Below, in pieces: positions 58,030 to 61,502 of a DNA stretch of 64,000 nt. The position numbers and the translations under genes are program-made. Numbering within the stretch: position 1 is the stretch's first letter; each line of letters begins with the position of its first letter. The notes beneath the pieces were generated by a model. The model was given only the letters and a program-made list of their open reading frames with translations. It was not told where the DNA came from and searched no databases. The DNA comes from Gammaproteobacteria bacterium (GTDB lineage Bacteria; Pseudomonadota; Gammaproteobacteria; Pseudomonadales; Pseudomonadaceae), in contig JAMCWB010000067.1 in the NCBI GenBank assembly GCA_023475025.1, positions 62,001-126,000 on the forward strand, read 5' to 3'.

Positions 58030-58128
58030 CCGCGTTTCAGCCAAGCACTTATCTTTTGTTATCAGCTGCGCGATTTCGGCAGCATGGACGCTATACTGCT
58101 CAGACCTGTCAACGAGTGCTGTGATGCA

Positions 58129-59697
58129 ATGAGTGCGCTGTATTTCTCCCCGATGTTGCTTGGTCTTTGCCTGCTGCTGGCCATCGCGGTCGCAGCTACT
58201 GCGCTCTGGCTGGTATCACGCCCCATCGCCGGGCCTGGTTTCTGGATGGCTGGTAGCTGGACCCTGATTGGCGGCATAGTACTGTTTATCGGCTTCATGG
58301 TGACTGGCAGCCCCACGCTCAACGTTTTGGGCAATGCCGGCCAACTGGCCGGCGAAGCGATTTTCCTGCTGGGTGTTTTCCGCTTTATGGGCCGCCCCTT
58401 GCCCTGGTGGATTGTGCCGCTCAGTGTTGGCACCATGGTCGGTTTCAATATCCATTACTGGATCTACGCTGGCAATTCCGACTTCCTCATGGGTGTCTAC
58501 TCCACCATTGCCGGACTCTTGCCGCTACAGGCCATCTGGCTATTGATGCGCGCTCGGGACGATGCTGTCACACGCCCCGCCCGTCTGTTGGTCGCCATCA
58601 GCCTGCTGATCTATTCCGTAGTCACCCTGATTCGTGGCGCCCTTGGCTATCTTGATTGGTGGCAACAACAGCCCTATGAAATGCCCTATGAGTCATTCAG
58701 CTACCTGTTGCCCTATAACTTTGCCATTCCGGCTATGGTCATGGGTTTTATCGGTGTCACCCTGATGACCATGCAGCGTATCCTCGCCCGCAGTCAGCAC
58801 CATGCCCAGGCGGCAGAACACAGTGCCCAGCGTTTTGAGCGCCTGCTCAGCGCCACCAGCTCCGGTGTAGCTATAGTGCAGGCCGAACAGATCCAGGATG
58901 CGAACATCCGACTGGAGCAGATGACCGGTCGCCGGCGCTCAGAGCTACTCGGTTTACCGGTTAGCCGACTGTTCAACCACGACAGCCAGCCCGCGCTGCT
59001 GGCCAGCCTGGAGCAGGGCCGGGTCCGGCAGCTGGAAGTTCAGGTCTTGCATCAGCAACAAGGCCAGTTCGACGCAGAAATCAACCTGGAGCCGTTGGGC
59101 AATAACGGTGACCAGATTCTTGAGTTGCGTGATATCAGCCACCACAAGGCACTGGAAGCCCAATTACATGCGCTGGCTACCCGCGACTCCTTGACCGGTG
59201 TGTTAAATCGCCGTGCCTTTGATCAGGCAGTACAGCCCGAACTGGCTCGCTGCGAGCGACATGGCCATCCCTTGAGCCTGGCCCTGCTGGATCTGGATCA
59301 TTTCAAGCAGATCAACGACCAGTATGGTCATAGCATGGGGGATAAGGTGCTGCAGTCATTTACCCTGTGCTGCCAGCAGCATATCCGCTCCAGCGATCGC
59401 CTGGCCCGTTTTGGCGGTGAAGAGTTCATCATCCTGCTGGTAGACACCGATGCAGCTGCAGCCCTGCGGCTGATGCAGCGCTTACGCCTGTCCGTACACC
59501 AGTTGCAAGCGGATCCGGCCCAGTCTGACCTGATGGTCCGCTTCAGCGCCGGGGTAACCCAATGGCAAGCAGGTGATACACTGGACTCTATGGTGCGCCG
59601 TGCGGATCGGGCACTCTATCAGGCCAAGGGAGCCGGCCGTGATCAGGTGCACTGCTGGCCACTTGCCAACGAGAAGATTGACCATGTTGACCCTTGA
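58129..59697 (+). CDS. membrane PAS-GGDEF diguanylate cyclase
   Basis: N-terminal TM region, PAS, DSLTGVLNRRAFDQAV, RFGGEEFIILL. Confidence 0.92.
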   Translation: MSALYFSPMLLGLCLLLAIAVAATALWLVSRPIAGPGFWMAGSWTLIGGIVLFIGFMVTGSPTLNVLGNAGQLAGEAIFLLGVFRFMGRPLPWWIVPLSVGTMVGFNIHYWIYAGNSDFLMGVYSTIAGLLPLQAIWLLMRARDDAVTRPARLLVAISLLIYSVVTLIRGALGYLDWWQQQPYEMPYESFSYLLPYNFAIPAMVMGFIGVTLMTMQRILARSQHHAQAAEHSAQRFERLLSATSSGVAIVQAEQIQDANIRLEQMTGRRRSELLGLPVSRLFNHDSQPALLASLEQGRVRQLEVQVLHQQQGQFDAEINLEPLGNNGDQILELRDISHHKALEAQLHALATRDSLTGVLNRRAFDQAVQPELARCERHGHPLSLALLDLDHFKQINDQYGHSMGDKVLQSFTLCCQQHIRSSDRLARFGGEEFIILLVDTDAAAALRLMQRLRLSVHQLQADPAQSDLMVRFSAGVTQWQAGDTLDSMVRRADRALYQAKGAGRDQVHCWPLANEKIDHVDP

Positions 59698-60061
59698 ACA
59701 TATCGCGCTCAGCCTGCCAGTGATTCTGCTTGCTGCCTGGTGGTGGCGTGGTATCGGGCTACATGATCTGGCCTTGCGACAGGTGCGTCAGCATTGCCGC
59801 AAGGCTGACGTACAGCTACTCGACGAGAGTATCGTACTGCGTCGACTGCGCCCCTGCCGCAACCGCCGCGGACGCTGGGGCATTGGTCGCACTTACGCCT
59901 TTGAGTTTACCGTGACCGGTGAACGCCGCTACAGCGGTCAGATTGATCTGCATGGTGCCCGCTTGCAGGGGATTGCACTGGATCCACACCCCTATCCGGG
60001 TGCAGCGGATGAAACGGGCACCACCATTCATCAAAGTAATAATGTGCGCTCTTTGCATTAA
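59684..60061 (+). CDS. DUF3301-type membrane-anchored protein
   Basis: N-terminal TM; LRQVRQHCRKADVQLLDESIVLRRLRPCRNRRGRWGIGRTYAFEFTVTGE. Confidence 0.8.
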   Translation: MLTLEHIALSLPVILLAAWWWRGIGLHDLALRQVRQHCRKADVQLLDESIVLRRLRPCRNRRGRWGIGRTYAFEFTVTGERRYSGQIDLHGARLQGIALDPHPYPGAADETGTTIHQSNNVRSLH

Positions 60062-60065
60062 GGAC

Positions 60066-60079
60066 GTTCCACGTGGAAC
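60066..60079. promoter_or_regulatory. parS site (ParB-binding palindrome)
   Basis: Perfect palindrome GTTCCACGTGGAAC, matches the chromosomal parS consensus; near glmU/atp. Confidence 0.88.
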
Positions 60080-61056
60080 CCGCCACACTGGCCAATATCC
60101 CAACCCATGTGATTGCCGGCCCTTTGGGTGCTGGTAAAACCACTCTGCTACAACATCTACTGCAACAGCGACCGGCGCATGAGCGCTGGGCCATACTGAT
60201 CAATGAGTTTGGTCAACTGGGCCTGGACGCTGCCTTGCTTGAGGTGGATACCCGGGACGGGGTCAGCCTGGCGGAAATACCCGGTGGCTGCCTGTGCTGT
60301 GTCAACGGCTTACCCTTTCAGGTCGGCTTGCAACGCCTGCTTCGCCGCAGCAAGCCCCAGCGTGTCCTGATCGAAACCTCAGGCCTGGGCCATCCCGTTA
60401 CGCTGTTACAGCAGCTGCAGCAGCAACCATGGATGGGCGTGCTGACCATGCAGCCCTTGGTCATGGTTCTCGATGCCAGTGCCCTCGCGCGCGGACAGCC
60501 ATTGCCCGCAACCCAACAGGCCGCCCTGCCCCTGGCTGGTTGCCTGTTACTGAACAAATCCGCCCAACTGACTGAAGAGCAGCGGCAACACGTGTTGCTT
60601 TCTCTGCCGGCAGTCGTTCAGCACTGGACCGAACAGGCGGCGATTGACTGGCAACAGATACCTGGAGCAGGGGCAGCAACCCCAGATCAGGCCGCGATTG
60701 CCTCCAAACCTGCAGACCCATCTGGTCTGCGCGTGCTCTGGCGCAGCCGTGATGAGATCCATTGCCAGCAACAGCGTCAGGATGAGCATCTCAGCATGAG
60801 TTGGCGCCTGCACCCGCAACAACAGCTGGATCGCCGGCAAATGACGCACTGGCTTGGCCTGTCGCCCTGGCTCAGAGCCAAGGCAATTATCCACGCTACC
60901 GATGGCTGGTTCAGCCTGAATGCCCTGCCTGATAGTCCTCTGCGCTGGAAGCCAGCTGCACCAGCCAATGAACAACGTCTGGAATTGATCTTTGGCCAGC
61001 CACAGGATCAGCAGGCATTGACCACCGCCTTGCGGCAAACCTTGATCACAGGGTAA
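60073..61056 (+). CDS. CobW/COG0523-family GTPase (GTG start)
   Basis: VIAGPLGAGKTTLLQHLL, INEFGQLGLDAALLE, GGCLCCVNG. Confidence 0.92.
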   Translation: MEPATLANIPTHVIAGPLGAGKTTLLQHLLQQRPAHERWAILINEFGQLGLDAALLEVDTRDGVSLAEIPGGCLCCVNGLPFQVGLQRLLRRSKPQRVLIETSGLGHPVTLLQQLQQQPWMGVLTMQPLVMVLDASALARGQPLPATQQAALPLAGCLLLNKSAQLTEEQRQHVLLSLPAVVQHWTEQAAIDWQQIPGAGAATPDQAAIASKPADPSGLRVLWRSRDEIHCQQQRQDEHLSMSWRLHPQQQLDRRQMTHWLGLSPWLRAKAIIHATDGWFSLNALPDSPLRWKPAAPANEQRLELIFGQPQDQQALTTALRQTLITG

Positions 61057-61127
61057 GGTGTTCAGCCTTGAATGGGGTCAAGCCGGTGCTTGCCCGAAGA
61101 GCAATCAGACTGACTATTCAGGTTCGC

Positions 61128-61502
61128 ATGCGCCCGACCCGATTGATGTATTCCCTCTTTCTGCTGCTTTTTCTGACAAGTCATCAGGTACTTGCAGCGG
61201 CCTGTTTGATCGAAAGCGATGATGACGAGTTACCCATACGCCTTTGTCAGCAGAATATGACGATTCCCGATAACCTGTTCCAGGACAGCTTCTGCCAGCC
61301 ACAGATTCCTGATCGCAGCTTCAAGGTTAGCCAGGTTGAGCGTTGCCCGGACGGGGCTTATGGCGTCTGTGCCGGAGCCTATACCGAAGGCGTGGGTTAT
61401 CAACAGTCGATTTTTTATTACTCTGACCCGGATGATGCACCCTACCTGAAAATCTACTGCGAGGATGTCAGTCGTGGTGAGTGGCAGGAACTTGCTCAAT
61501 AA
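61128..61502 (+). CDS. small exported Cys-containing hypothetical protein
   Basis: Signal peptide MRPTRLMYSLFLLLFLTSHQVLAA; six Cys in mature part. Confidence 0.6.
   Translation: MRPTRLMYSLFLLLFLTSHQVLAAACLIESDDDELPIRLCQQNMTIPDNLFQDSFCQPQIPDRSFKVSQVERCPDGAYGVCAGAYTEGVGYQQSIFYYSDPDDAPYLKIYCEDVSRGEWQELAQ

Follow-up and report, generated by a model that had tools for sequence, protein, structure and literature searches.

A predicted oriC-proximal parS site contains the likely start codon of a CobW-family GTPase gene

The 14-bp palindrome GTTCCACGTGGAAC at positions 60066-60079 of the window (the whole stretch of DNA analyzed, 64,000 nucleotides) is an exact parS core, and from its sequence, copy number and conserved location it is a genuine chromosomal parS and a predicted ParB site, here termed the left-arm parS. 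Very probably it is an ordinary ParB loading site close to oriC whose GTG was taken over as the start codon of a CobW-family gene. The site would most likely serve chromosome segregation, not the control of that gene. The features of the region are as follows.

58084-59697, plus strand: GGDEF/PAS diguanylate cyclase gene, identified by open reading frame and domain match, overlapping the DUF3301 gene by 14 bp.
59684-60061, plus strand: DUF3301 gene (PF11743, 8e-30), whose 3' end appears to anchor the left-arm parS throughout the genus.
60060-60064, plus strand: AAGGA Shine-Dalgarno-like sequence, 8 nt before the GTG and overlapping the TAA stop of the DUF3301 gene (60059-60061).
60066-60079, no strand assigned: parS core GTTCCACGTGGAAC, an exact match with three copies in the genome and the same place in 37/37 congeners.
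60073-61056, plus strand: CobW-family (COG0523-type) GTPase gene, 327 aa, with its likely GTG start inside parS (open reading frame list, Pfam and alignment).
61068-61502, plus strand: gene for a conserved hypothetical secreted-type protein (open reading frame list and synteny).

The window contains no other match to GTTCCACGTGGAAC with two or fewer mismatches. A scan of the genome (3.1 Mb in 71 contigs) for further parS copies, as proposed in the preliminary description of this DNA, found three exact copies, all on contig C63 and within ~26 kb around the origin; two are inside recF and the third is the left-arm site. Under iid and Markov models, the exact 14-mer is expected by chance 0.00002-0.0003 times per window and 0.001-0.013 times per genome. 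A chance palindrome, or the site of another regulator, would have in its favor that the core CACGTG is a common palindrome and that the evidence consists of sequence. Against this, three copies are found around oriC where ~0.01 or fewer are expected per genome, every congener carries the site at the same place, and a control search with the reversed pattern almost always returned zero matches. A chance match was rejected on these copy counts and this conservation, and the probability that the 14-mer is something other than parS is close to nil.

The 14-mer is an exact instance of the palindromic parS core GTTYCACGTGRAAC. The site had initially been described as a perfect parS, which holds for the 14-bp core but not for the 16-bp form; this reads CGTTCCACGTGGAACC and deviates from TGTTCCACGTGGAACA at both outer bases, each of which is C. 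The 16-bp TGTTCCACGTGGAACA is the optimal form and is not strictly required. It is the sequence of the best parS sites in P. aeruginosa, where parS1 and parS4, with one outer mismatch, bind slightly more weakly yet sufficiently for segregation (PMC4368675). The outer bases of the left-arm parS vary across the genus, and the recF sites inspected have T...A. Since both of its outer bases deviate, the left-arm parS is possibly the weakest of the three copies, and its affinity for ParB may fall below that of the recF sites.

On C63 the left-arm parS is located at 122.07 kb, ~22 kb to the left of dnaA and oriC and on the far side of parAB (parB, 132.9-133.8 kb; parA, 133.8-134.6 kb), at a distance of 11-12 kb from these genes. 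DnaA boxes are present at 144.17-144.36 kb, with dnaA at ~144.4 kb and then dnaN, recF and gyrB. The earlier suggestion that oriC is nearby stands, with the left-arm site taking its place in the cluster of parS copies at the origin; oriC is not just past the right edge of the window, which ends at 126.0 kb, ~18 kb short of dnaA. The genome encodes a cognate chromosomal ParA/ParB pair. ParB matches TIGR00180 (1.8e-59) and the Caulobacter-type ParB structure 6t1f (5e-58), and the neighboring gene is assigned as parA from gene order and N-terminal sequence, its NCBIfam match falling under the curated cut-off. In P. aeruginosa, parS is functional within a zone of roughly 650 kb (PMC5098823) and a single oriC-proximal parS is enough for segregation (PMC4368675); the position of the left-arm parS is well inside a working zone of this type.

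In our proposed reading, the chromosome is of the Halopseudomonas type (P. pertucinogena lineage) and the 14-mer is its third parS, on the left arm. ParB, encoded 11 kb from the site, would bind it and load there as a sliding clamp, ParA would pull the loaded ParB, and the site would help to form the oriC-proximal partition complex. The four P. aeruginosa sites, parS1-parS4, share the 14-bp core and likewise include two copies in recF, parS1 and parS2 (PMC5521831), with all high-affinity sites near oriC. They are numbered clockwise and are found to the right of oriC, two of them intergenic at promoters (PMC4368675, PMC5521831). Unlike that cluster, the third site here is to the left of oriC, within an apparent operon, and has both outer bases off consensus.

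The 58 nearest genomes were searched in two independent ways, by the CobW protein and by the parS pattern, and 12 genomes were followed up. All 37 congeneric genomes carry the left-arm parS at this position in the gene block, directly after the DUF3301 gene. Most congeners have exactly three parS copies, with fewer in fragmented assemblies. The left-arm site and the first recF site share a contig in the 23 genomes measured, and in 22 of these they are separated by 22.8-30.4 kb. The exception is G021 (C1:2943488-2998749), where 55 kb separate the left-arm parS from recF, with an apparent insertion of ~25-30 kb between oriC and the site. With G002 excluded, most genomes have 2-49 bp between the DUF3301 stop and parS; in two small groups this gap widens to ~380 or 823 bp. 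At L036/L090 (G028) and L038 (G018), DUF3301 and parS are ~800 bp apart and parS is ~500 bp before CobW.

One relative is identical over 3,963 bp to Pseudomonas neustonica SSM26, a species that we take to belong to the P. pertucinogena lineage, now Halopseudomonas. From this relative we infer that the host genus is Halopseudomonas-type; NCBI lists P. neustonica under Pseudomonas. In a family-wide scan, too redundant to place the sites, most Pseudomonadaceae genomes matched the parS pattern. Other families of the order were covered by single representatives, and among the matches listed for these, most have only the site pair with recF-like spacing and none was seen to have a left-arm parS.

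The preliminary description had raised the possibility that ParB occupancy silences or tunes the CobW-family gene. If ParB regulated CobW in this way, or through the cell cycle, and the site were retained at the start codon on that account, parS would be expected to disappear with the gene. CobW orthologue loci found by protein alone do carry parS 5' of CobW in 30/30 cases, at up to ~500 bp upstream, and precedents exist: P. aeruginosa ParB represses the genes adjoining the intergenic parS3 and parS4 (PMC5521831), and in S. pneumoniae parS affects comCDE (PMC7022226). When we asked whether the site vanishes with the gene, however, the site stayed. All seven genomes in which CobW is absent retain parS; in six of them it follows the DUF3301 stop by 10-37 bp and precedes the hypothetical gene, and in the seventh the contig ends before reaching DUF3301. 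Because a pattern search located the sites in these genomes, conservation of the core letters is by construction there; presence of the sites at this place is not. Retention of parS in these seven genomes argues that the site is not kept for CobW. The distance from parS to the CobW start also ranges among the 30 loci from overlap to ~500 bp, with overlap limited to one clade, and intragenic parS sites of P. aeruginosa are without effect on their neighbors at the native ParB level (PMC5521831). By this comparison the left-arm parS is anchored by the 3' end of DUF3301 and the distance to oriC, not by CobW.

The local gene organization bears on the same question. No promoter-like site was found on the plus strand between 57900 and 61500, and no promoter or terminator beyond chance between DUF3301 and CobW. 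Since the AAGGA sequence and the TAA stop of DUF3301 overlap, translational coupling of DUF3301 and CobW is likely; the GGDEF/PAS gene is likely on the same transcript. Because the left-arm parS appears to be operon-internal rather than promoter-associated, ParB probably has little effect, if any, on CobW expression. With its neighbors so packed and no promoter-like sequence nearby, the nearest analogy is to parS sites inside genes. Like the P. aeruginosa recF sites parS1 and parS2, which have no obvious regulatory effect at the native ParB level, it constrains gene codons; unlike them, it covers a start codon and adds three residues. Given its retention without CobW, its variable distance to the start and the lack of promoter-like sequence in the DUF3301-CobW gap, a site that exists to silence or tune CobW is unlikely. 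Slightly less likely still is a clade-specific effect in which ParB loading at the start codon would couple partition-complex assembly to expression of this metal-related GTPase, for example by blocking operon transcription during assembly.

On the other side of CobW, the hypothetical gene at 61068-61502 is found directly to the right of parS in genomes without CobW. Relatives align to its product only from about residue 15, so that its true start is probably the ATG near 61128. The protein is conserved across Pseudomonadaceae beside CobW and DUF3301 and has no Pfam or NCBIfam match.

GTG 60073 opens a reading frame of 327 codons whose product matches Pfam cobW (PF02492, 1.2e-39) and CobW_C (8.9e-5, just above the cut-off), in agreement with the original assignment to the CobW family. 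The family motifs, Walker A GPLGAGKT and the CxCC motif GGCLCC, are invariant or nearly so. Because the product scores 95.7 bits against TIGR02475, the equivalog for CobW in cobalamin biosynthesis, far under the cut-off of 332, the gene is by sequence a COG0523-type GTPase of the CobW family and not CobW proper. Upstream in frame there is a stop 26 bp before parS, with no ATG, GTG or TTG between it and GTG 60073. Before Walker A the other in-frame candidates are only CTG 60088 and GTG 60109, and a start at GTG 60109 would remove the start of the fold. GTG 60073, as originally proposed, is the likely start; no other usual start codon yields a complete CobW-family protein. The Shine-Dalgarno sequence originally assigned to it is present, with a spacing of 8 nt and not 9; two of the three clade relatives have AAGG(G) and the third a weaker AACGGA.

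Translation could instead begin at CTG 60088, which would leave parS wholly in the 5' leader. All four clade members share this CTG, located one codon past the site of the relatives' ATG, but CTG start codons are rare and the AAGGA is well placed for GTG 60073 while being ~23 nt from the CTG; we consider a CTG start quite improbable. We give even less credence to an mRNA hairpin, GUUCC-ACGU-GGAAC, that would present or hide the start codon and control translation. For each of the four clade members, a 5-bp stem is predicted whose loop holds the start-codon GU, but folding is no better than in shuffled sequences (z between -1.1 and +0.7), on which ground structured mRNA was rejected. Two identical 14-mers are also inside recF, and the site persists without a nearby start codon.

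Only in this genome, G015, G027 and G029 is the likely start codon within parS the sole one available to CobW; these four genomes form one clade with a support of 1.0 in a tree of four neighboring proteins. All four CobW genes begin GTG GAA CCN, with no other in-frame ATG, GTG or TTG upstream, and encode the N-terminus VEP-x-x-L-x-N-IPT, as opposed to MLxxIPT elsewhere. The codon constraint noted in the preliminary description is thereby supported, with parS fixing the opening codons GTG GAA CC. In the other congeners CobW typically starts MLxxIPTHL, and its own start codon follows parS by 2-500 bp, often by exactly 10 nt; the ancestral Met position is occupied in the four clade members by Thr, Lys, Gln or Lys. 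In seven relatives (L015, L017 and L031-L035), exactly 10 nt separate the end of parS from the CobW ATG, and no clear Shine-Dalgarno is seen except the GGA of parS. G022 has GTG GAA CCA ATG in frame, an arrangement that could be what an intermediate looks like; the CobW starts at L020-L022 were assigned by protein alignment (L020 aligned). From these comparisons, the start codon inside parS is a late, derived feature of the four-species clade. In the simplest history, CobW lost its ancestral ATG and came to start at the in-frame GTG of parS, adding Met-Glu-Pro. The overlap would be a lineage-specific accident, through which segregation would constrain these three residues.

Stutzerimonas and related Pseudomonadaceae have a left-arm parS, GTTCCACGTGAAAC, in a homologous block near CobW, the hypothetical protein and DUF3301. 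Their parS is found 3' of the hypothetical gene instead of at DUF3301/CobW, and their CobW and DUF3301 genes are in opposite orientation. The inversion of CobW, relative to both DUF3301 and the hypothetical gene, is seen in other Pseudomonas and Stutzerimonas (L092-L171, e.g., L110, L127 and L143). The position of parS therefore wanders within this gene block.

In the literature searched, no start codon inside a parS is described, a negative result that counts only weakly as evidence of absence. The comparison shows that an oriC-proximal parS is kept for its chromosomal place: seven congeners have lost the adjoining gene and still carry the site. The overlap would also be a clean natural case of a DNA-binding site supplying a start codon, whereby segregation sets the N-terminal residues of a protein. 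The main use of this finding may be in the annotation of start codons and parS sites in the genus, and the data give no evidence of a new regulatory circuit.
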